NCBI GenBank assembly: GCA_027858775.1
Contig: JAQICA010000303.1
Coordinates: 1-64,000 of the forward strand
Length of the DNA stretch: 64,000 nucleotides
Reading direction: 5' to 3'
From: Salinivirgaceae bacterium
Lineage (GTDB): Bacteria > Bacteroidota > Bacteroidia > Bacteroidales > Salinivirgaceae
This document shows positions 5,103-18,743 of this stretch, one piece after another. The translations under genes were made by a program, and so were the position numbers. Below the pieces are notes generated by a model, which had not been told where the DNA came from, did no database searches, and was given only the letters and a program-made list of their open reading frames with translations. Position 1 is the stretch's first letter, and the number at the start of each line of letters is the position of its first letter.

Positions 5103-5477
5103 TTATGTCATTTTAGCTTTAAGTACCTTATCTACAGTTTTTCCAATTTTGTCTAGTAGGTAAGGTTTTGTAATAAGGTCGTCGAACCCCCCCTGTTCAA
5201 AGGTTTCGAAAAAATCTTCAGGGTTATGCGCTGTCAAAGCAATAATGGGTAAGTTCGATTTTAAATTTTCTCGAATGTGTTGCGTAGTCTCAATTCCATT
5301 CATTACAGGCATTTCAATGTCCATCAGTACCAAATCTATTTTGTCTGATTCAATGCAATTTAAAGCTTCTCTTCCATTGGAGGCCTGTGCATAATTGTAG
5401 CCAAGTTTTTTGATCAATTCAACCAGAAGAATGCGGTTAATTACAATGTCGTCAACAATCAAGATTTTATGTGGCAT
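5103..5477 (-). CDS. single-domain response regulator receiver
   Basis: ILIVDDIVINR...DLVLMDIEMPVMNGIE...IIALTAH...LITKPY; divergent from the che cluster. Confidence 0.88.
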   Translation of the reverse strand: MPHKILIVDDIVINRILLVELIKKLGYNYAQASNGREALNCIESDKIDLVLMDIEMPVMNGIETTQHIRENLKSNLPIIALTAHNPEDFFETFEQGGFDDLITKPYLLDKIGKTVDKVLKAKMT

Positions 5478-5593: not shown

Positions 5594-7375
5594 ATGCAAT
5601 TGAATACACCAATTGCAGCCTTAACTCCCTTGTACATGACAGATATAAGTTCGAAAGAAATACAAAGTATTATTAGTGATATCGTTCATGGATTCTCTTC
5701 TATCGACACGAAGGTTATGGAACTTAATGTAGTGAGTAATCAGGATTTTACTGCGCTCAATAAAATATTTAAAAACCACCATGAAACCACCAAGGGTATT
5801 TCTCAAAGCACATCGGCCATTATTGATCAGGTTCAGGCGCTGGAAAGGAATGCGGTATTCGGAAAACTCAAAGAAGTAGAGGGTAAATATCGGTTAATGC
5901 TAGATGAAACAAATGTGCAAGTGAGCGATTTCAATGTTGAAACGGGAACCCTAAAGACCGATTTTAAACACATATTTATTCCTATTCTTAATTTTAAGCA
6001 GAATATTTCCACACTACGATTTTTATTAGCAAATTTGAAACTTAACCAAGGATTGGTAGATAAGGAAGTGGATTGCGATGCAACAAAGTTGATTGATGAC
6101 CTGAACGAGAAAATTACCGGTATTCAGTCAGAAATACCTACCATTGCATCTGATATTGAGGAACTCAAAGAACAATATGCAACAGCTCAGGATTTGGGTT
6201 CGCATATTTTGCAGAATATCCTGCCTGATTTTGATATTCATACGGCTGGTTTGCATCAGCATCTGCAAACAATTACGGCCAGTATAGAAAAAACCATGAT
6301 CATAAACCATTCTGTGGACGAGCTTACCCAGCAGGGCTTTCAAAACCTAAACGAAGTTATTACTAACCTTCAGTACCACGATATTATCCGACAAAAAATT
6401 GAACATATTCAGCAAACACATCAAAGCATAATTGCCGAACTGAATAATCTCGACAAAGCTGAAAATGTAATCAAAAAAGGACTCGATTATGTGAAGCAAA
6501 TCCCTGAAATTACAGAAATTCAGGCCGGTCAACTTCTTTTGACTAATAAGGAATATCAAACAGCCATTGAAAATACTTCGCTTAAGCTTATTGAAACAAC
6601 AAAAACCCTCGAGGAAGTTAATGCACACACAAAAAATATTTTTGGAGATGTTGATGCAGAGAAAGTTGCTGAAATAGTACAAACGCACTTGGGGAATGTT
6701 AAAGCCTATAAACTTCAATTGTTTGAAAGTGTCGAAAAGCTTATCGCCGTAAACGAAACGCTACAAACGCATATAGGCAGGCAGAGCCAGCACTATCAAA
6801 AATTAGCGCAATTAGAGAATAAAATATCCTCGGTGGTAAAGGATTTGAACAAAATTATCACCAATAAAGACGAAGTAAAAGCTTTGGTAAGCAAGTTAGT
6901 TGCATTAATTAATGATATCAACGAATCACGAGCCAATATTGGTAAAATTATTCACGTGCATCAGAATAATCAGTTGGGCGCAATTGTTAATGAAATGCAA
7001 GCCCGAAAAGCCACATTCACTATAGATGATATTAGCGAGGACGAAATGAATGGGTTTTCAGGTGAACTGAAACAGATTAATAGCCAAATTGTGAATAATT
7101 GTACCTTATATACTAAGCTAGACATTGATTTGAAGACAACCTTGGAAAACATTAAGTATTACGATTTTTACGATGTGGAGGTTGAGGCAATCATTAGTCA
7201 GCTTAACCTTATTTATCAAAAAATTCTTCAGGTATCGGGTAATGGCGACGGCTCAACCGATTTACTCACAATCATGAAAAAGGCTTATACAATGAAATCG
7301 CAGCGCGATATACACGAAAAAGCATCTGACAATGAGCCGGAAGAAGAAGATGAAGATAATCTGGAGTTGTTCTGA
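5594..7375 (+). CDS. soluble coiled-coil protein of a chemosensory cluster, possible CheZ-like / atypical signalling protein
   Basis: 593 aa, no TM segment, heptad-rich; NLQYHDIIRQKIEHI (DxxxQ) motif; acidic tail EPEEEDEDNLELF; first gene of the che cluster. Confidence 0.6.
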   Translation: MQLNTPIAALTPLYMTDISSKEIQSIISDIVHGFSSIDTKVMELNVVSNQDFTALNKIFKNHHETTKGISQSTSAIIDQVQALERNAVFGKLKEVEGKYRLMLDETNVQVSDFNVETGTLKTDFKHIFIPILNFKQNISTLRFLLANLKLNQGLVDKEVDCDATKLIDDLNEKITGIQSEIPTIASDIEELKEQYATAQDLGSHILQNILPDFDIHTAGLHQHLQTITASIEKTMIINHSVDELTQQGFQNLNEVITNLQYHDIIRQKIEHIQQTHQSIIAELNNLDKAENVIKKGLDYVKQIPEITEIQAGQLLLTNKEYQTAIENTSLKLIETTKTLEEVNAHTKNIFGDVDAEKVAEIVQTHLGNVKAYKLQLFESVEKLIAVNETLQTHIGRQSQHYQKLAQLENKISSVVKDLNKIITNKDEVKALVSKLVALINDINESRANIGKIIHVHQNNQLGAIVNEMQARKATFTIDDISEDEMNGFSGELKQINSQIVNNCTLYTKLDIDLKTTLENIKYYDFYDVEVEAIISQLNLIYQKILQVSGNGDGSTDLLTIMKKAYTMKSQRDIHEKASDNEPEEEDEDNLELF

Positions 7376-7415: not shown

Positions 7416-7715
7416 ATGGCGCTAAAGGTAGAACGAAAAGGCGATGTGCTAAAATTACAATTCGATTCATCATTAAATGTACAAAACATTAGTGCAGTTT
7501 ATGATGAGTTGGCAGATGTGAATTTTGACAAGGCTAACCTGGAAATTTATTTTTCAGAAGAGAATATACCAGACTTGTCATTTCTGCAACTGATTGTATC
7601 CTTGCAAAAGGAGATATTATCGAGTGAGCAGAAAATCAAGTTGTTTGGCCCCTTGGATGATATGCATAAAACCATTATTTTGGGGTTGTTAAAAAATATT
7701 GAATTCGGAAAATAA
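7416..7715 (+). CDS. STAS-domain-like protein
   Basis: 99 aa MALKVERKGDVLKLQFDSSLNVQNISAVYDEL...IPDLSFLQLIVSLQKEI...LFGPLDDMHKTIILGL; STAS size and pattern, located between the coiled-coil protein and cheY. Confidence 0.6.
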   Translation: MALKVERKGDVLKLQFDSSLNVQNISAVYDELADVNFDKANLEIYFSEENIPDLSFLQLIVSLQKEILSSEQKIKLFGPLDDMHKTIILGLLKNIEFGK

Positions 7716-7727
7716 AAAAATACCACA

Positions 7728-8093
7728 ATGGGAAAAAAAATACTCATAGTCGACGATTCTGAGAGTATCAGGGAAGTAGTAAGCTTTACGCTCGAAAATG
7801 CCGGGCACGAAGTGCAAAAAGCTATAGATGGAGACGATGCCCTAAAATATTTAGATGGTGCAGCTTATGACTTAATTATTACCGATTTGCACATGCCAAA
7901 CAAAAATGGCATTGAGCTTATTCGGGAAGTTCGCAAATTAGACACTTATAAATTTATCCCAATCCTGTTTTTGACAACAGAATCCCAAACTACCAAGAAA
8001 AAGGAGGCTAAAGAGGCAGGCGCAACCGGATGGATTGTGAAACCATTTGTTCCGGAAAAATTATTAGCAGCAATCAATAAAGTTGTAAGGTAA
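7728..8093 (+). CDS. cheY: chemotaxis response regulator CheY
   Basis: KKILIVDDSESIREVVSFTLENAGHEV...DLIITDLHMPNKNGIELI...PILFLTTES...GWIVKPF; stop overlaps the cheA start (TAATG). Confidence 0.92.
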   Translation: MGKKILIVDDSESIREVVSFTLENAGHEVQKAIDGDDALKYLDGAAYDLIITDLHMPNKNGIELIREVRKLDTYKFIPILFLTTESQTTKKKEAKEAGATGWIVKPFVPEKLLAAINKVVR

Positions 8094-10129
8094 TGGAAGT
8101 ATTTAAGCAGAAGTTTATTGAAGAGGCAACAGAACAGATTAACGATCTGGAACAGGCATTGCTTCAGCTCGATCAGAATAAAGAGGATCTCGAAACCATC
8201 GAATCGATATTTCGAGTTATGCACTCCCTGAAAGGAGGTAGTGCGATGTTTGGCTTCGAAAAAATTGATCGGTTTACCCACATTCTCGAGAATATTTATG
8301 AAAGTATTCGCTCCGGAGAGGCTAAGGTTACTTCTGATATACTCGATCTTACTTTTCAGGCCGTAGATCACCTCCGGAAATTATTGGATGAGACACCTGA
8401 AAGTGAAAAGTTGCTCGAAAAGGAAAATAACAAATTTATTGAGCGAATACAAAAGGCTCTGGACGATAAAGCAGTTCCTGAGCACACCTCTTTGCAGGAT
8501 GAAAAAACGGAAGGGAAAGTGAAAACCTACTTTGTGCGATTTGTTCCCGATGAAGATATTATGCACAACGGTACCAATCCGCTTTACTTACTAGAAGATC
8601 TGGCCAATCTTGGAAATATCCTCATTGTACCAAATGTCGACAATATTCCCTCGTTTGAAAAGATCAATCCCGAAAAAACATATACTTCCTGGAATATTTT
8701 CCTAAGCACAAACGCCGGAATTAACGCCATAGTCGATGTCTTTATTTTTGTTGACGATGAGGCGAGAATTGAAACACATAAAATCTCTGATTACAACCTG
8801 CTTGAACTCGAAGCAGTAAGAAACATTTTAAAAGAAACACTTCACAAAAAACCAGAAATCAAACCAGCCGATATTCAGGAACTGATTATTGACCTTGAAA
8901 GCGTGTATCACGATAAGGAAGTTGAAGATATACAGCCCGATACGCGCAAAAAAGTTGAACATAGTATTTCCAGTATTCGTGTGGGAGCAGACAAACTTGA
9001 TAATTTAATTAATTGGGTTAGCGAACTTGTAACTATCCAAGCGCAACTGTCGCTCTATTCGCGTGAAAATAATAATCCCGGATTGGCGCCCATTGTAGAA
9101 GAAATTGAAAAAATTTCTCGCCGCCTCCGCGATGACGTTTTTAGTATCCGATTGATTCCAATTGCCAATATGGTAACCCGTTTCCAACGTTTAGTGCGGG
9201 AACTATCGAATGAACTCGGGAAAGAAGTTCTTTTCGAAACAAAAGGAACCGAAACCGAACTCGATAAGAACATGATTGAGATGTTAATAGATCCAATTAT
9301 GCACATTATCAGAAATAGCCTCGACCATGGAATAGAAATAAATGCAGCTGGACGAACTGCTGCCGGCAAAAAACCAAAGGGCACCATTACCCTTAATTCA
9401 TATTATTCGGGAACAAACGTTTATATTCAGATTATTGATGATGGACGGGGGCTTGACCCGCAAGCAATAAAGCAAAAAGCGGTAGAGAAAGGACTCATTG
9501 AAGAAGATGCCGAACTAACTGAAAAAGAAGCATACGATTTAATATTTTCATCTGGTTTTAGCACCGCAAAAGAAGTGACAAACGTTTCAGGGCGTGGCGT
9601 TGGTATGGATGTAGTTAAACGAAAAATTGCCGAACTACGTGGAGAAGTAGAAATGACCAGTGAAAAAGGAAAGGGAACAACTGTAACCATAAAACTTCCA
9701 CTTACACTTTCAATTATAGACGGATTGCTCGTGCGAATTGAAAAAACCAAATTTGTAATTCCACTTTCCGCAGTCCATAAAATCTATGAGTTTACTCATA
9801 CCGAAATCGAAGAGGCCATAAACAACCTTTTCCTTGCCGATGAAAAACGCGTACCTTTTATCTATTTACGTAAAGTGTTTAACATCGAAGGAGCACCACC
9901 CGAAATTGAACGAATCGTAAATGTTGAGTATCAAGATACTTTCATGGGTCTCACGGTCGACGAAATTATTGGGGAATATCAAGCTGTACTAAAGCCTTTG
10001 GGGCAAATGTACAAAGGAATCGATATAATTTCCGGAGCCACCATCCTCGGCGATGGTACCGTTGCACTTGTACTAGACCCCAATCGGGTGATTTTTGAAT
10101 TTGCCAATAACGAAAACCTTAAAGTTTAA
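8093..10129 (+). CDS. cheA: chemotaxis histidine kinase CheA
   Basis: Hpt HSLKGGSAMFGF, dimerisation, HATPase (DPIMHIIRNSLDHGIE, DDGRGLD, GRGVGMDVV) and a C-terminal CheW-like domain. Confidence 0.97.
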   Translation: MEVFKQKFIEEATEQINDLEQALLQLDQNKEDLETIESIFRVMHSLKGGSAMFGFEKIDRFTHILENIYESIRSGEAKVTSDILDLTFQAVDHLRKLLDETPESEKLLEKENNKFIERIQKALDDKAVPEHTSLQDEKTEGKVKTYFVRFVPDEDIMHNGTNPLYLLEDLANLGNILIVPNVDNIPSFEKINPEKTYTSWNIFLSTNAGINAIVDVFIFVDDEARIETHKISDYNLLELEAVRNILKETLHKKPEIKPADIQELIIDLESVYHDKEVEDIQPDTRKKVEHSISSIRVGADKLDNLINWVSELVTIQAQLSLYSRENNNPGLAPIVEEIEKISRRLRDDVFSIRLIPIANMVTRFQRLVRELSNELGKEVLFETKGTETELDKNMIEMLIDPIMHIIRNSLDHGIEINAAGRTAAGKKPKGTITLNSYYSGTNVYIQIIDDGRGLDPQAIKQKAVEKGLIEEDAELTEKEAYDLIFSSGFSTAKEVTNVSGRGVGMDVVKRKIAELRGEVEMTSEKGKGTTVTIKLPLTLSIIDGLLVRIEKTKFVIPLSAVHKIYEFTHTEIEEAINNLFLADEKRVPFIYLRKVFNIEGAPPEIERIVNVEYQDTFMGLTVDEIIGEYQAVLKPLGQMYKGIDIISGATILGDGTVALVLDPNRVIFEFANNENLKV

Positions 10130-10133
10130 TATT

Positions 10134-10682
10134 ATGACTACAAAACATCAAAAATTAGAAAATATCTCAAACACAATGGAAACGTACCTGTCGTTCAGAC
10201 TTGGACGAGAGGTCTTTGCTGCATCTGTTCACCACGTGGTGAATATTCTAGAGCTAAAACCCATAACTAAAGTGCCTCACGCACCCGAATACATGAGTGG
10301 TGTCATTAATTTGCGAGGTCAGGTATTGCCAGTAATCGATATGCGTGTGAAGTTTGGAATGACGCCAACGGAACCCACAGTTGATACATGCATCATTGTT
10401 CTGAACCTCGAAATTGAGGAAGAGGAAGTTATTTTGGGAATTCTTGTAGATGCAGTTAGTGAAGTACTGGAGCTTGAAGGAGAACAAATTGAACCATCGC
10501 CAAGTATCGGTACAAAATACAAAGCAGAGTTTATTAAAGGAATGTGGAAAAAAGATGAAACATTCATCATGCTGCTGAATATTAACCTCGTTTTTACGCG
10601 CAATGAACTTGTTGTAGTTGAGGAGAAATCATCTCAGGCTGAAGTCGATGAGGTGAAAGAAAATGAAAAAACTGATGAGTAA
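10134..10682 (+). CDS. cheW: chemotaxis adaptor CheW
   Basis: METYLSFRLGREVFAASVHHVVNILELKPITKVPHAPEYMSGVINLRGQVLPVIDMRVKFG. Confidence 0.95.
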   Translation: MTTKHQKLENISNTMETYLSFRLGREVFAASVHHVVNILELKPITKVPHAPEYMSGVINLRGQVLPVIDMRVKFGMTPTEPTVDTCIIVLNLEIEEEEVILGILVDAVSEVLELEGEQIEPSPSIGTKYKAEFIKGMWKKDETFIMLLNINLVFTRNELVVVEEKSSQAEVDEVKENEKTDE

Positions 10683-10834: not shown

Positions 10835-12103
10835 TTGAATATGAGGAGATTATTTTTTATTGGTTGGGTAACGGTGTTGCTCATTTCGGGTTTTTCAGGG
10901 TGGTCGCAAAATACAAGTGAGTGGAAAAGTAAATTATACGGATTTGTAAGAGCCGATGCGTTTTACGATTCACGCAAATCAGCAGAGGCTGTAGATGGAA
11001 TGTTATTGCTCTATCCACTCAACACATTGTATGATTCGGTAGGTAATGATATCAACAATATTGATCAGGTTACAATGACAAGTATTTCGAGTAGAATTGG
11101 CCTGAAAACAGGAGGCGGAAAAATATTTAATTCTTCGGCCATTGTTCAGGCAAGACTCGAAGCTGATTTTACTGCTCGATCGAATAGTAATTCATTGCGG
11201 ATGCGACATGCTTACGTGCAATTAAAATGGGAAAACCATAAACTACTGATGGGGCGTACATGGCACCCAATGTTCACTCCCGACGTATTTCCTTATACCC
11301 TCAGTATCAATGTGGGAGCCCCTTTTAATCCGTTTAATCGTAGCCCGCAACTTCGTTATACGGCCACTATTAAGCGGTTTTCTCTGTTGGCGGCACTGCT
11401 TTATCAAAACGATGCACTCAACTTAGGCCCCGATAGTAATAATGAGATTGTAAAACGACTCGATTTAATGCGAAATAGCATGATTCCAAATATACATTTG
11501 CAGGTCAAATATTCAACAGAACTTACGGCTATAGGTCTGTTTGCCGATTTTAAATCGTTGCGTCCACGCAATTTTACAACCGGAATAGTAGGGTTATTTA
11601 AAACAAATAATACCATCGAAAGCCTGAGTACTGGCATTTATGGCAAAGTAACCACAGGAAAATTTTGCCTTAAAGCAAAAACCATGCTTGGTCAAAATTT
11701 AACAGACCACTTAATGCTGGGCGGATACGCAGTTCATAAACTCGATGCCGCTACAGGAGAAGAAATTTATACAGCTTCGAACCACTCTTTTTCGTGGCTA
11801 AACTTTGAATATGGCAAAACATTTACCGGAGGACTGCTAATAGGATATAGTCATAATTTGGGCTTTTCAAACAATATTGTTCCAATCACGAATATTTATG
11901 CACGTGGGAGCGATATAGAATACCTATATCGCGTAAGCCCATATGTAAAGTGGCAATCAGAGCGCGTTGAATTGTGGGCAGAAACCGAAATAACCACCGC
12001 TGCATATGGCGATATCGATTATAACCATCGTGGTAGAGTGCAAAATAGTTCGGAAGTCACCAATGTTCGGGTTCAATTTTCATGTGTTTATCTTATAATG
12101 TAA
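10835..12103 (+). CDS. outer-membrane beta-barrel porin-like protein embedded in the che cluster
   Basis: Signal peptide (MNMRRLFFIGWVTVLLISGFSGWSQ), repeated amphipathic strands, YGFVRADAFYDSR start and RMRHAYVQLKWENHKLLMGRTWHPMF typical of DcaP/porin-like barrels, aromatic barrel-like end. Confidence 0.65.
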   Translation: MNMRRLFFIGWVTVLLISGFSGWSQNTSEWKSKLYGFVRADAFYDSRKSAEAVDGMLLLYPLNTLYDSVGNDINNIDQVTMTSISSRIGLKTGGGKIFNSSAIVQARLEADFTARSNSNSLRMRHAYVQLKWENHKLLMGRTWHPMFTPDVFPYTLSINVGAPFNPFNRSPQLRYTATIKRFSLLAALLYQNDALNLGPDSNNEIVKRLDLMRNSMIPNIHLQVKYSTELTAIGLFADFKSLRPRNFTTGIVGLFKTNNTIESLSTGIYGKVTTGKFCLKAKTMLGQNLTDHLMLGGYAVHKLDAATGEEIYTASNHSFSWLNFEYGKTFTGGLLIGYSHNLGFSNNIVPITNIYARGSDIEYLYRVSPYVKWQSERVELWAETEITTAAYGDIDYNHRGRVQNSSEVTNVRVQFSCVYLIM

Positions 12104-12107
12104 GAGT

Positions 12108-12953
12108 ATGAACGACCATGCAGGAAATTTTAATAATATACAATTAAACTCTAAAGAGTTTGAAAAATTAAGTACGTATATTTTTGGGAATTATGGAATA
12201 AAAATGCCGTTGGCAAAGAAAATAATGCTGCAAAGTAGGTTGCAGAAACGTCTAAGGCATTTGAATATTACCACATTTGAAAAATATATTCAATTTGTTT
12301 TTAGCGATAAAGGCAAAGAAGAAATAATTCACATGATGGATGTGGTATCGACCAATAAAACCGATTTTTTTCGTGAACCCACCCATTTTGAGTTCATGAG
12401 CGAAGAAATTTTGTCTGAAATCTATAACCGGAAACAAAATAATGTGAAAATATGGAGTGCGGGAAGCTCCAGTGGGGAAGAGGCATACACCATTACCATG
12501 GTAATGGAAGAGTTTATTGAAAAACATGGACACCTCAAATATGAAATTATCGGAGCCGATATTTCTACCGATATGCTTAAAAAGGCCATTAATGGCGTCT
12601 ATAAACTCGAGAAAGTATTTAATATTCCGGAGAGCTATAAGAGAAAATACCTGCTTAAAAGTAAAGATCCATTGAAGAAATTGGTTCGGATAAAATCACA
12701 TTTGCGAACAAAAGTAAAATTCTTTCGTTTGAACCTAATGGACACAGTGTACAATTTCCCAAAAGATTTTGATATGATTTTCTGTCGCAATACCTTAATT
12801 TATTTTGAGCGCGACACGCAGGAAAAGGTTATCAATAAATTGTGCGACCACTTGAAACCCGGTGGGTATTTTATTTTAGGCCATTCAGAGTCTATTACAA
12901 ATATGGATGTGCCTTTACAAAATATTAAGCCAACTATATTCAGAAAAAAATAG
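12108..12953 (+). CDS. cheR: chemotaxis methyltransferase CheR
   Basis: TNKTDFFREPTHFEFM, VKIWSAGSSSGEEAYTITMV, FDMIFCRNTLIYFERDTQEKVI, GGYFILGHSESI. Confidence 0.95.
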   Translation: MNDHAGNFNNIQLNSKEFEKLSTYIFGNYGIKMPLAKKIMLQSRLQKRLRHLNITTFEKYIQFVFSDKGKEEIIHMMDVVSTNKTDFFREPTHFEFMSEEILSEIYNRKQNNVKIWSAGSSSGEEAYTITMVMEEFIEKHGHLKYEIIGADISTDMLKKAINGVYKLEKVFNIPESYKRKYLLKSKDPLKKLVRIKSHLRTKVKFFRLNLMDTVYNFPKDFDMIFCRNTLIYFERDTQEKVINKLCDHLKPGGYFILGHSESITNMDVPLQNIKPTIFRKK

Positions 12954-12957
12954 CCCT

Positions 12958-13344
12958 ATGATGCTGAACCTTTTAATTATTGATGACGATATCTTTTTCA
13001 GAGAGTTGATAAAAGATATTTTACAAGACTATCCGGTAACAGTACACGAAGCTGCTAATGGAGAAGAAGGATTGGTGGTTATGCGACAAGAAACAATTAA
13101 AGTTGTAGTTACAGATATTATTATGCCCGAAAAAGAAGGACTCGAGAGCATTATGGAAATTTTGCAGAAGTATCCGGGCACAAAAATAGTAGCCGTTTCG
13201 GGAGGAGGGGCAGGTAGAGGTAGCGACTATTTAGAAATGGCAACCTCATTGGGTGCACACGCAACGCTGGCTAAACCCTTCGAAAAGGAAGAGTTAATCG
13301 AAGCGTTGAATCAGTTGACAGATAATAAGTTAGTTGTGGGTTGA
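12958..13344 (+). CDS. response regulator receiver
   Basis: MMLNLLIIDDDIFFRELIKDIL...VVVTDIIMPEKEGLE...IVAVSGG...ATLAKPF. Confidence 0.88.
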   Translation: MMLNLLIIDDDIFFRELIKDILQDYPVTVHEAANGEEGLVVMRQETIKVVVTDIIMPEKEGLESIMEILQKYPGTKIVAVSGGGAGRGSDYLEMATSLGAHATLAKPFEKEELIEALNQLTDNKLVVG

Positions 13345-13397
13345 TTTTCCGGTAGCTCCTGTTAAACAGTAAATAATTGATGTTAAAGCGGCATATT

Positions 13398-14309
13398 ATG
13401 GAAAAGAAAATTACAGATGAAGAATTGTTACGTGAATTAAGTATTCGTTTCGAACAAAACAAAACCGCACTTGAAGAACTGCGACATAAGTCTGAACAGC
13501 TGAAAAAGGTAAACGAAAAACTTAAAGAGTCAGAGTCGCTCAAAAGTCACTTCTTGTCAAATGTTACTAACGAAATTGTAAATCCGTTTGCATCCATACT
13601 TGGCTTGAGCCAAAATATTATGTCGCTGAGAGTCGACAATTACGAAAAAATTAAACCGCTTGCACAGCTAATTCATTCAGAAGCATTTAATCTTGATTTT
13701 CAACTGAAAAATATTTTTGCTGCGGCAAAAATTGAAGCCGGACTGGCTCAACCTGAATTATCAGCTGTGAATATCAGTTCGCTCATCGAAAGTGTAATCG
13801 AAAGTTATCGCTATAAAGCACGTCAAAAAGAGCTGAAAATTAAATTTCATTATCAGTCAAACACTCAAAATGGAACAATAACAGGCTTTCCTACGGATTC
13901 TGAAAAAGTGAAACTTATTATTTCCAACTTATTGAATAATAGTATCAAGTACAGCAATGCTGCGGAAAAAATCGATGTTTCAAGCTTTATCGATGATAAA
14001 GGAGCGCTTTCAATTGTGGTAAAAGATTATGGAAAAGGAATCAGCTCCGACGATAAAGAAAAGCTTTTCGACCGATTCGAAAAAGGAGTAGAGTCAATTC
14101 ATTCACTCAATGAAGGGTACGGTTTAGGCTTGTCGGTAACGAAAGCTTACGTTGAATTGCTGGAAGGGGAAGTGAACGTGAAAAGCGAACCCGGAAAAGG
14201 AGCCGAATTTGCCATTGTGTTGCCCCGCCCCGACGAAACTAATTTCCTGGAAGGTTTCTCAGACGATGGAAACCAAATATTTTTCGATGACTCTGATGAA
14301 GAATTTTAA
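13398..14309 (+). CDS. sensor histidine kinase-like protein with degenerate H-box
   Basis: Coiled coil, then FLSNVTNEIVNPFASILGLSQ (His of SHE replaced by Asn), then an intact HATPase (NLLNNSIKYS, DYGKGIS, GYGLGLSVTK). Confidence 0.85.
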   Translation: MEKKITDEELLRELSIRFEQNKTALEELRHKSEQLKKVNEKLKESESLKSHFLSNVTNEIVNPFASILGLSQNIMSLRVDNYEKIKPLAQLIHSEAFNLDFQLKNIFAAAKIEAGLAQPELSAVNISSLIESVIESYRYKARQKELKIKFHYQSNTQNGTITGFPTDSEKVKLIISNLLNNSIKYSNAAEKIDVSSFIDDKGALSIVVKDYGKGISSDDKEKLFDRFEKGVESIHSLNEGYGLGLSVTKAYVELLEGEVNVKSEPGKGAEFAIVLPRPDETNFLEGFSDDGNQIFFDDSDEEF

Positions 14310-14312
14310 TAT

Positions 14313-14795
14313 GTGTTTATGGACAATTTGCCTGCATACTATTTATATCCTGCGAACTTATTTGTGTCTCCCGAAAAATATCTCATCAATACGTTGCTTG
14401 GGTCTTGTGTAGCTATTTGTTTGTTTGATCCCATTTCAAAAATTGGAGGGATGAACCATTACATGTTGCCACTTTGGAATGGAGAGGGGCTGGCATCTCC
14501 AAAATATGGAAATATTGCCATCGAAAAACTCCTTGAGAGCATGCTAAAGCATGGAGCCCGTAAACATAATATTATTGCTAAAATATTTGGTGGAGGAGAA
14601 GTTATTGAAACACACCATCATTATTTTAATATTGGTAAACGAAATATAGACCTGGCACATAGCTTTTTATCCGAATTGAAAATTCCTATAAAAGCAGAAA
14701 GCACTGGAGGGAAACTCGGCCGGAAAATTCAATTTCATACAGAGACAGGAAGCGTTAAAATGAAATACATAAATCGTCAGATTATAGAAGATTAG
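14313..14795 (+). CDS. cheD: chemoreceptor glutamine deamidase CheD
   Basis: LLGSCVAICLFDPISKIGGMNHYMLP...KIFGGGEVI...DLAHSFLSELKIPIKAESTGGKLGRKIQFHTETG. Confidence 0.93.
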   Translation: MFMDNLPAYYLYPANLFVSPEKYLINTLLGSCVAICLFDPISKIGGMNHYMLPLWNGEGLASPKYGNIAIEKLLESMLKHGARKHNIIAKIFGGGEVIETHHHYFNIGKRNIDLAHSFLSELKIPIKAESTGGKLGRKIQFHTETGSVKMKYINRQIIED

Positions 14796-14858: not shown

Positions 14859-15947
14859 ATGAGTAAAATCAGAGTATTGGTTGTCGACGATTCAGCTATT
14901 GTAAGGCAAACGCTTACTGAAATTCTTAATGCAGACAACGATATAGAAGTTATTGCAGTAGCTTCGGATCCATATTATGCCGCTAAAAAAATACAAAAAG
15001 AAGTTCCCGATGTAATTACACTCGATGTGGAGATGCCACGTATGGATGGCTTAACGTTTCTAAGAAAAATAATGACACAACACCCTTTACCTGTTATTAT
15101 TATTTCATCGCTTACTGCAAAAGGAACAGAAACGGCCATTAAAGCATTGGAATATGGTGCAGTCGATATTATTACCAAACCCAACATGAGCACAAAAGAC
15201 TTCTTTAAAGAGTCGAGTATGAAAATATGCGATGCTGTGAAGGGAGCTGCCCGGGCAAAAGTCAACCGAAAAAGCATTAAAACAATAAAAGAAATACATA
15301 GACCCATACAGGGTGTAACACCAAAACTCTCTGCCGATGCCGTGCTGCAACACAGGTCGGGTCGCAGTATGCTGGAAACTACCGATATTGTAATTGCCGT
15401 AGGAGCCTCAACCGGCGGAACAGAAGCATTGCGCGAGTTTCTGATGGGACTCCCCCCTGACAGCCCCGGAGTTGTTATTGTGCAACATATGCCGGAGCAC
15501 TTTACCCGCTCATTTGCCGAAAGGCTCAATGAATTGTGTCAAATTTCTGTTAAAGAAGCAGCTGAAAATGACACTGTAATTCGCGGTCGGGCTCTGATAG
15601 CTCCCGGAAACCATCACTTGCTGGTAAAACGATCTGGAGCGCGTTATTATGTTGCAATAAACAATGGGCCATTAGTCAATCGTCACCGCCCATCAGTAGA
15701 TGTTTTGTTTCGTTCCACTTCGCAGTATGTCGGTAAAAATGCAATTGGAATATTAATGACAGGAATGGGTGATGATGGTGCGCAGGGATTACTTGAAATG
15801 CGCGAAGCAGGAGCTATAACTGTTGCTCAGGACGAAAAATCATGCGTAGTATTTGGAATGCCTAAGGAAGCCATAGCCCGCGGAGCAGCTCAACATATTC
15901 TGCCACTCAACCAAATGGCAGGGTTTGTGGCCAAACACAGACGCTAA
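14859..15947 (+). CDS. cheB: chemotaxis methylesterase/response regulator CheB
   Basis: Receiver ([28 protein letters not shown]) plus CheB catalytic domain ([51 protein letters not shown]). Confidence 0.97.
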
Positions 15948-16469: not shown

Positions 16470-18743
16470 ATGGGGAAAAATAGAAATTTAACCAGAATCT
16501 TTCTTATAGGAAGTATCTTATTCAGCTTCTTGCTGTATTTTTTTATCATTAAAGGCCTGTTGGGAGCTCAAAATCTTAGTTTCACGCCAAGTAACCTTGC
16601 TACACTTCACCAAAATCCTATCTATTTTTTAATAGATAGTTTGGTGATTATTCTGCCGCTTTTTGCATGGCTTGTAGGTTCTTTTTTCGAAGAATTAGTT
16701 AATTCCTTACGAAAAAAAATAAAGCAAGAAGAAGGGAAACAGGAAAAACTAAGTAGAATTACGGCATACCTTAACCAAGGAGATGTTGATTTTGAAGAAG
16801 AAGTTGGAAGTAACAATGGCGTTGTGCAGCAACTATTGAGTTTGCGCGATAATCTGAAGCAACAAAAGAAAGATGAAGAGATCCGCAAGCAAGAAGATAA
16901 TCAGCGCCACTGGGTTGCCGAAGGGCTTGCGAAATTTGGTGATATACTGAGGCAAAATAACGACAATATTGAAAAGTTATCCTTCGAAATTATCAGTAAA
17001 CTATCTAATTATATTGATGCCGTACAGGGTGGCTTTTACCTTTTCGAAGACGAAGATCAAAATGATTTACATTATCGTTTAACCGCTCATTTTGCCTACA
17101 ATAGACAAAAATATAATGAAAAACGAATCGAATGGGGCGAAGGGCTTATAGGAAGAGCAGCCTTCGAAAAAAAGACGCTCCTTATCGATGAGGTTCCAGG
17201 TAATTATGTTGAAGTAACTTCCGGGTTGGGCGAAACAAATCCCGACGTACTTCTTATTGTACCGTTAATCTACAATGGTGAAGTGCACGGGGTTATTGAG
17301 CTGGCCGGGTTCAATAGTTTCGAAAAATATAAAGTTGACTTTGTTGAGAAAATTGCGGAGAACATTGGCTCAACCATTAGCAATGTTCGAATTAATGTGC
17401 GTACAGCAAAGTTGCTGAAAGATAGCCAGGAACAAGCCGAGCGATTATCCCAACAAGAAGAAGAAATGCGGCAAAATATGGAGGAGCTGCAGGCTACACA
17501 AGAAGAGGCTGCGAAGCAATCCAAAGAGTTTATCAGTTTTACCAATTCAGTAAATCATACACTTATTCGCGCAGAGTACGATGTAAATGGAATATTGATT
17601 TATGCCAATACCAAATTCTTACGCATGCTAGAGTACGATAAAGGCTCTGAGGTTGAGGGGCACCATATTTCCATGTTTATCAATGAAAAAGATAAAGTTT
17701 GGTTCAACGATATTTGGAATGAGCTGTCGCGAGGTGGCCAGCACTTTGAAGGCTACATGAAGCATGTGACCAAAAAAGGAAAAGACTTGTGGACTATGGC
17801 AACTTATACTTGCGTGAGAAATGAGGAGGGTGGCGTTGAAAAAGTATTGTTCCTTGCAATCGATACAACTGAGCACAAAAAGCAATCGCTCGACTACGAA
17901 GGGCAAGTGTCTGCGCTTAACTTGGCCAACATAAAGGCCGAATATGCACCATCGGGTAAGTTTATTGCTTGTAATGAGAAATTTCTGGAAGCGGTAGATT
18001 ACTCAATGGACGAGGTGAAAGAAACAAGTATTTTCGACTTCTTTACCGATGAAAACCAGGCCAGTTTTGAGGAGCTTTGGAACGATGTAGTAAATGGAAA
18101 GCCATACCAGGGACAGTTAAATGTAACGGTCAAGGACAAGAAAGTTAAGTGGTTCCAGATGACATTTATGTCTGTGAACGATATGTACGGTGAAGTAGAT
18201 AAGATTCTGGTATTAGCCATCGATATTACCGACCAAAAAGAGCTCGAAATTCGCATTAGCGAGCAAAATCGTACGTTAAAAGTGCAGGAAGAACGCCTGA
18301 AAAATGCCGAAGTTGAGTTGCAGAAACGGCTAGATACAGCTAAACGGGAACTGCGCCAGCACTTCAAAGAGGTTGAACGTAGTAAAGTTCGGCATGAAAA
18401 AACGTTGCAGGGAATGCTCGATGGGATTGTTACTATAAATCAGAATGGAATAATCGAATTCTTTAATAAGGCGGCCGAAAATCTTTGGGGGTACGATAGC
18501 AAAGAAGTACTTGGCCAAAATGTGAAGGTGCTTTTTAGTAAAGAAATGATTGAAAATAATGACTTTGTAAATTCTTTCGTCTCAACTACAAAAGATAAGT
18601 TTATTGGCGAGCGCAAGGAAGTAAGCATCATGCCGAAAAATGGCGAGCCAGCACAAATATTGATTTTATTGTCCGATGCAACAGTTGATAAAGAGCACAC
18701 TTACACAGCATTTATACAACAAATTGAAGTTGAGTTGTTTTAA
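16470..18743 (+). CDS. membrane GAF/PAS-domain protein without kinase or MCP output domain
   Basis: Two N-terminal TM helices with a short loop, GAF (GFYLFEDEDQNDLHY...GEGLIGRAAFEKKTLLIDEVPGNY...LLIVPLIYNGEVHGVIELAG), linker EEEMRQNMEELQATQEEAAKQ, two similar PAS blocks, then a third PAS. Confidence 0.8.
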   Translation: MGKNRNLTRIFLIGSILFSFLLYFFIIKGLLGAQNLSFTPSNLATLHQNPIYFLIDSLVIILPLFAWLVGSFFEELVNSLRKKIKQEEGKQEKLSRITAYLNQGDVDFEEEVGSNNGVVQQLLSLRDNLKQQKKDEEIRKQEDNQRHWVAEGLAKFGDILRQNNDNIEKLSFEIISKLSNYIDAVQGGFYLFEDEDQNDLHYRLTAHFAYNRQKYNEKRIEWGEGLIGRAAFEKKTLLIDEVPGNYVEVTSGLGETNPDVLLIVPLIYNGEVHGVIELAGFNSFEKYKVDFVEKIAENIGSTISNVRINVRTAKLLKDSQEQAERLSQQEEEMRQNMEELQATQEEAAKQSKEFISFTNSVNHTLIRAEYDVNGILIYANTKFLRMLEYDKGSEVEGHHISMFINEKDKVWFNDIWNELSRGGQHFEGYMKHVTKKGKDLWTMATYTCVRNEEGGVEKVLFLAIDTTEHKKQSLDYEGQVSALNLANIKAEYAPSGKFIACNEKFLEAVDYSMDEVKETSIFDFFTDENQASFEELWNDVVNGKPYQGQLNVTVKDKKVKWFQMTFMSVNDMYGEVDKILVLAIDITDQKELEIRISEQNRTLKVQEERLKNAEVELQKRLDTAKRELRQHFKEVERSKVRHEKTLQGMLDGIVTINQNGIIEFFNKAAENLWGYDSKEVLGQNVKVLFSKEMIENNDFVNSFVSTTKDKFIGERKEVSIMPKNGEPAQILILLSDATVDKEHTYTAFIQQIEVELF

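Follow-up and report, generated by a model that had tools for sequence, protein, structure and literature searches.

The DNA analyzed was a stretch of 64,000 nucleotides (the window) from an uncultured Bacteroidales bacterium, in which an intact open reading frame for a protein of 593 aa lay beside chemotaxis genes. The ORF list and the translation placed this open reading frame, and the two short segments of it quoted in a preliminary description, at the positions which that description had given. The full gene order was 593-aa protein-(STAS)-CheY-CheA-CheW-CheR-(RR)-HK-CheD-CheB. The genes were identified as follows, with the evidence for each in brackets.

5594-7375, forward strand: intact open reading frame of the 593-aa soluble coiled-coil protein, a proposed CheY-P phosphatase (ORF list)
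7416-7715, forward strand: probable STAS protein, between the 593-aa protein and cheY (weak Pfam STAS match, below the cut-off)
7728-8093, forward strand: CheY, the predicted substrate (PF00072, 99.5 bits; adjoins the gene of the 593-aa protein in most loci)
8093-10129, forward strand: CheA (Hpt, H-kinase_dim, HATPase_c and CheW domains)
10173-10682, forward strand: CheW, single domain (PF01584, 126 bits)
12108-12953, forward strand: CheR (PF01739, 197 bits)
14313-14795, forward strand: CheD (PF03975, 102 bits)
14859-15947, forward strand: CheB (open reading frame; matches the CheB of other loci)
16470-18743, forward strand: PAS protein of 757 aa with terminal EVELF, downstream of cheB (PAS S-box domains)

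No membrane segment was found in the 593-aa protein, and its maximum 19-residue hydropathy was 1.03. Pfam and NCBIfam scans of the protein and its family returned coiled-coil noise alone (SMC, Mce4, COG4). A PDB search with the single 593-aa sequence found nothing, and a PDB search with the family profile gave coiled-coil noise. The protein did not match PF04509 or PF13690, the families of CheC and CheX, which carry an ExxN motif. The following features were assigned within the gene by prediction and alignment.

5651-6454, forward strand: hairpin 1, the putative live half, helices 20-154 and 157-287 (AlphaFold2)
5702-5773, forward strand: conserved segment of helix 1, residues 37-60 (D51 F52), 107 residues from the turn (conservation profile)
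5990-6052, forward strand: remnant of a chemoreceptor hairpin tip, residues 133-153, NFKQNISTLRFLLANLKLNQG (aligns with LRMLGIAAKIESARL of relatives L119-L123)
6365-6409, forward strand: DxxxQ motif NLQYHDIIRQKIEHI, residues 258-272 (30- and 73-sequence alignments)
6380-6394, forward strand: D263 to Q267, predicted catalytic pair, cf. D143/Q147 of CheZ (conservation)
6500-7228, forward strand: hairpin 2, the degenerate half, helices 303-421 and 426-545 (AlphaFold2; half-versus-half profile match)
6500-6577, forward strand: conserved segment of helix 3, residues 303-328 (Q310, L314, N318, A324, I328), 107 residues from the turn (conservation profile)
7148-7192, forward strand: degenerate second copy NIKYYDFYDVEVEAI, residues 519-533, conserved as KYYDFF, 101 residues from the turn (alignment; conservation profile)
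7286-7315, forward strand: YTMKSQRDIH element (Y565, T566 and H574 at least 90% conserved in the 73-sequence alignment)
7331-7372, forward strand: acidic linker and C-terminal tail EEEDEDNLELF (alignment)

The preliminary description had seen in NLQYHDIIRQKIEHI the Asp-x3-Gln spacing of CheZ, and the spacing is indeed that of E. coli CheZ, in which DLTGQ begins at residue 143. The mere presence of such a motif was at chance level (three D...Q strings in the 593-aa protein, 2.8 expected from shuffles), and it is therefore the conservation that lifts the observation above chance. Homologues were retrieved by searching 198 whole genomes of the order without use of the motif. The 30 sequences aligned had an overall identity of 20-30% to the 593-aa protein. 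Alignment of homologues had been proposed as a check on the two residues; it was carried out, and both were invariant, D263 in 30/30 and Q267 in 30/30. For the remaining two D...Q pairs, D was kept in 1/30 and 3/30, and Q in 3/30 and 12/30. Six positions in all (Q260, D263, I264, I265, Q267 and H271) were invariant in 30/30 and in 73/73 sequences, and the DxxxQ site was the highest conservation peak of the whole family. Because the rows of the 73-sequence alignment that came from the contig scan were picked by a pattern including the DxxxQ motif, the conservation claims rest on the 30-sequence alignment, on the relatives L119-L126 and on divergent members. The most divergent members retained both D and Q, in QIHDRVRQ (G195) and QFHDIIRQ (G065).

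The AlphaFold2 model computed from the 73-sequence alignment consisted of two long hairpins (pLDDT 85, pTM 0.69), with helix breaks at residues 259-261 and 518-522, immediately ahead of both motif copies. The second copy, NIKYYDFYDVEVEAI, began 261 residues after NLQYHDIIRQKIEHI. It had been described as a segment that aligns with the first and lacks the Gln; this likeness is real, and the segment is in addition conserved in its own right, as KYYDFF. The D of this copy was kept in 47/73 sequences, while the position four residues on was occupied by K, N, E, Q or V, with Gln in just 5/73. Each helix had one main conservation peak, whose centre lay 107, 110, 107 and 101 residues from the turn in helices 1 to 4, respectively, and D51 and F52 in helix 1 were invariant in the 73-sequence alignment. 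Conservation at the same height on all four helices fits, as far as the predicted model goes, a duplicated hairpin arranged as a four-helix bundle that has a functional site at that height. The side-by-side packing of the hairpins and the exposure of D263 and Q267 are inferred; the model coordinates were not inspected for them.

Comparison of the profile of half 1 with that of half 2 gave a probability of 91% and an E value of 1e-6, and reversed controls gave 46% and 2e-4. Coiled-coil composition inflates both the match and the reversed control, so the half-versus-half score is by itself moderate evidence. The same comparison in relatives L119-L123 gave 90% and an E value of 1.4e-6 against 0.02 for the control, and their halves aligned QFHDITRQQMEHV onto DVHNEFKFSIERI and also one receptor tip onto the other. 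The half-versus-half profiles, the symmetric helix breaks and the matching conservation belt together supported the earlier proposal that the protein is internally duplicated, one half being live and the other dead. The structural comparison proposed at the same time did not refute the idea. The predicted model has two long hairpins, as do CheZ and MCP bundles, but a Foldseek search of the AlphaFold model against the PDB gave no specific match, only generic long coiled coils, with no CheZ among the 50 matches listed.

Relatives of the 593-aa protein were then sought outside the order. Most weak phylum-wide matches were rejected as coiled-coil noise since they covered residues 315-525 only; full-length matches (L119-L123) and two further proteins (L124 and L126) were kept. 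The full-length relatives had recognisable but degenerate MCP tips in both halves, and one of these double-hairpin proteins, L120, matched PF00015 (MCPsignal) above the cut-off in two stretches (42.7 bits). Single-hairpin relatives were L124 and L126 within the phylum and, among the Proteobacteria, proteins of Sphaerotilus (L138), Methylobacterium (L139) and Methylosinus (L140). In these a good MCP tip was followed in order by QFQDxxRQ, Y[TV]xxx[EQ]Rxx[HD] and terminal IELF. MCPsignal was matched above the cut-off by the single-hairpin proteins L124, L138-L140 and L148; the 593-aa protein had no PF00015 match. L124 also gave a weak match to the CheZ family PF04344 (18.3 bits, E 0.0023). The plasmid MCPs matched by the Sphaerotilus protein (L142-L147) were set aside as ordinary receptors, the motif being absent from the MCP concerned.

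Counted from the Glu of the tip, the Asp of the motif lay 111 residues further on in 5/5 double-hairpin relatives and in a Vibrio protein; the figure was 112 for both L124 and L126, and 114-117 for the three plasmid proteins from Proteobacteria. In the 593-aa protein itself the distance from N151 at the tip to D263 was about 112 residues by our own tip alignment. The Vibrio protein is McpA-like, with LQFTDIIVQQ and terminal EVELF, and is encoded on the chromid, where the genes follow one another as CheB - McpA-like - STAS - phosphatase, the arrangement published for F7. McpA-like receptors (F7: PA0180/CttP and VCA1088; F9: VC1394, which has been grouped with McpA (PMC7534058)) resemble the 593-aa protein, to judge from the Vibrio and plasmid relatives, in three respects: QF[QT]D...Q lies 111-117 residues past the tip, the conserved tail ends in ELF (EVELF in Vibrio, KIELF in Sphaerotilus), and the position in che clusters is the same. 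They differ in having a membrane segment at the N-terminus and one hairpin whose MCP tip can be recognised, whereas the Bacteroidales protein is soluble and doubled, with degenerate tips. The 593-aa protein apparently arose by tandem duplication of an MCP cytoplasmic hairpin and has lost most of the tip consensus as well as the membrane anchor. From these sequence comparisons we conclude that it belongs, as a soluble and doubled form with degenerate tips, to a family derived from receptors, of which the McpA-like receptors are also part.

Two conserved elements near the C-terminus, the ELF tail and the YTMxSERxIH element, had been missed in the preliminary description. The pattern Y[TV]xxx[EQ]RxxH was present in the proteobacterial relatives too. 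The tail had the form [ILV]-E-[LF]-F, with F593 in 73/73 sequences, E591 in 72/73 and I, L or V at position 590, and the Vibrio, Sphaerotilus, Methylobacterium and Methylosinus relatives ended in the same way. Among 2,189 other ORFs longer than 80 aa in 80 loci, 11 ended in [ILV][ED][LF]F, and all 11 were orthologues of the PAS protein, whose full-length orthologues ended in V[ED]LF in 11/11 cases. The 593-aa and PAS proteins are unrelated and belong to the same cluster, and their common tail may be a docking peptide to one partner. An array component is one candidate for this partner and, from the parallel with CheZ, CheY is another; there are no binding data. A CheR-tether pentapeptide was rejected as the main reading of the tail because it has no aromatic residue at the F-x-x-F position and because the Val tail of McpA is reported not to bind CheR; the McpA C-terminus is described as highly conserved, with a failure to bind CheR that is due to Val at position 2, and with an unclear role (PMC7184735). 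Three MCPs of the source genome (L031, L033 and L034) ended in EFHNF, DFESF and EFENF, which have the F-x-x-F form of a CheR-tether-like pentapeptide.

The genomic distribution of the family was examined in the same 198 genomes, of which 34 were matched. Thirty-three of the matches were real by profile, each in single copy; the 34th (G111) was an 18-bit coiled-coil match and not a family member. All 33 positive genomes were among the 60 that carried CheA (hypergeometric p about 2e-21, relatedness not corrected for). No member was detected in the other 27/60 CheA-bearing genomes, so other Che classes manage without the family. In 59/80 loci, cheY and/or cheA lay no more than 2.5 kb downstream of the gene, and the position of the STAS gene was conserved in many loci. 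The gene and the cluster are both present in the cultured relative Perlabentimonas gracilis (L108). The absence of CheZ, CheC and CheX, noted earlier for the cluster, extended to the whole source genome assembly (93% complete), in which none of the three was detectable. Across the order, CheZ was found above the cut-off in 0/198 genomes and CheX in 3/198, CheC having been searched for in the source genome alone. The source genome had at least five MCPs, and a second CheY-CheA-CheW-MCP cluster in it (G000:C287, L187) had no copy of the 593-aa protein. In rumen and gut Bacteroidales loci (including L042, L049, L060, L061, L088 and L109), the gene, with motif and tail, lay away from che genes; in the loci read it stood beside a glycosyltransferase-like gene, and a sampled rumen genome (G055) had its CheA genes on other contigs.

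The protein had been called CheZ-like. As regards the D/Q pair, which is invariant, this stands; by sequence, however, it is not a recognisable CheZ, and the ancestry that can be traced is that of a chemoreceptor hairpin. It had no match to PF04344 at E values up to 1, nor was that family one of the 25 listed for the 73 members. An hhalign comparison with a six-sequence CheZ profile gave an E value of 0.45, the same as the reversed control. Locally, FQDLTGQVI of CheZ can be set against [YF][QH]DII[RK]QK[IM] of the family. CheZ (E. coli, PDB 1KMI) has several features in common with the protein: a long hairpin helix (predicted in the 593-aa protein) bears the DxxxQ between similar flanks (FQD..GQ), the gene adjoins cheY, and a flexible linker leads to a C-terminal peptide with a final Phe, although the peptides differ in sequence (VDDLLDSLGF in CheZ, NLELF in the 593-aa protein). 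It differs in length (about 214 aa against 593) and in being a homodimer rather than a single chain of two hairpins, and there is no detectable sequence homology. DxxxQ is an established motif of response-regulator phosphatases, found in CheZ and in NarX-type kinases (PMC3510030). CheT of Sinorhizobium and Agrobacterium is likewise a DxxxQ CheY-P phosphatase, unrelated in sequence to CheZ and without homology to known chemotaxis proteins (PMC12654446), but no duplication has been reported for it. As an account of how the protein works, the idea in the preliminary description stands up well, but the name CheZ does not suit the protein, which is rather a variant of the DxxxQ class, new and descended from a receptor.

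Given the precedents of CheZ, NarX and CheT and the genomic evidence, dephosphorylation of CheY-P by D263 and Q267 is the most likely role of the protein. We consider it probable that the 593-aa protein is a dedicated CheY-P phosphatase, evolved from a chemoreceptor rod and CheZ-like in mechanism, although its activity is inferred and there is no biochemical evidence for it. Counted against this reading were the non-significant CheZ profile, the generic Foldseek matches, the reversed controls that stood above background, the separation of the gene from the che cluster in rumen Bacteroidales and the 27/60 CheA genomes without a member. The two hairpins would lie side by side as an inferred single-chain four-helix bundle, and its membrane-distal turns would correspond to the former tips of the receptor. 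Some 100-110 residues from these, towards the opposite end, the conserved belt from four helices would present D263 and Q267. In the CheZ-CheY structure the Asp of CheZ contacts a Lys of CheY, and D263 may contact the active-site Lys of CheY-P in the same manner. The part of Q267 would be to position the water molecule for hydrolysis of the aspartyl phosphate; the Asp and Gln of CheZ coordinate the attacking water (PMC3510030). Since the copy in the second hairpin is degenerate and Gln-less (KYYDFF), one live site per chain is predicted. With its disordered acidic linker and terminal [ILV]-E-[LF]-F, the protein may tether a partner, most simply CheY (cf. the CheZ C-terminus) or else the signalling array.

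Other roles for the protein were weighed against the same data. DosM, the double-signalling-domain receptor of F9 arrays (PMC7534058), offers a precedent for a receptor-like scaffold, structural or kinase-controlling, with tips that bind CheA/CheW and a DxxxQ that serves as a packing element. Both proteins have two MCP-derived hairpins in tandem, and the AlphaFold double hairpin agrees with such an architecture. However, DosM, which spans two baseplates, has retained signalling tips that function, whereas in the 593-aa protein the tips are degenerate and it is the DxxxQ belt that is conserved (3-4 bits, against a background level of 0.6-0.8 bits at tip 2). The tip consensus for kinase control is lost, PF00015 being matched by 1/73 family members, and weakly, and the CheW of the cluster is single-domain, not the triple CheW of F9. 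A scaffold would also leave unexplained why D and Q are conserved at exactly i and i+4, and we regard it as unlikely.

A CheZ-like phosphatase might instead act on a receiver other than the adjacent CheY, namely the solo response regulator at 5103-5477, the receiver at 12907-13344 or CheB. Several receiver proteins are indeed encoded in and beside the cluster, and an opposite-strand regulator often adjoins the gene, but the cheY-cheA pair is its most constant neighbour, with or without other regulators, so that a different substrate seems quite unlikely. That DxxxQ is not catalytic, and is a docking or sequestering site for CheY-P or an element of a phosphate sink, could be argued from the retention of both residues in one of the two copies only, and from the equal invariance of Q260, I264, I265 and H271, which goes beyond the need of a two-residue catalytic motif. 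From QIHDRVRQ to LQFTDIIVQ, however, the single pair kept is D and Q at i and i+4, and such a role appears very improbable.

If the 593-aa protein is a CheY-P phosphatase, evolution has made phosphatases out of chemoreceptor rods, and duplication has produced a single-chain pseudo-dimer with one dead half. It would be a candidate for the missing signal termination in a group of chemosensory systems of Bacteroidota in which no CheY-P phosphatase has been recognised. This candidate is tied to McpA-like receptors, whose published role is unclear, by the common DxxxQ at a fixed distance from the tip, which suggests a job for this unexplained class. Whether the chemoreceptor-like class as a whole, from the proteobacterial McpA-like receptors to the soluble doubled Bacteroidales form, consists of CheY-P phosphatases on a receptor rod that end F7-like, F9-like and Bacteroidota signals in the absence of CheZ, CheC and CheX is in our judgement evenly balanced. 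If this were true for the whole McpA-like class, the receptors and the proteins that end the signal would belong to a single lineage.

Three further genes were observed within the cluster. A porin-like outer-membrane protein was encoded at 10835-12103, between cheW and cheR, and was also found in three other loci (L038, L084 and L114). Between cheR and cheD, a receiver protein was encoded at 12907-13344 and a soluble histidine kinase without a sensor domain at 13377-14309, the latter present there in most loci. A histidine kinase and a receiver in this position are an unusual insertion for a chemosensory operon.
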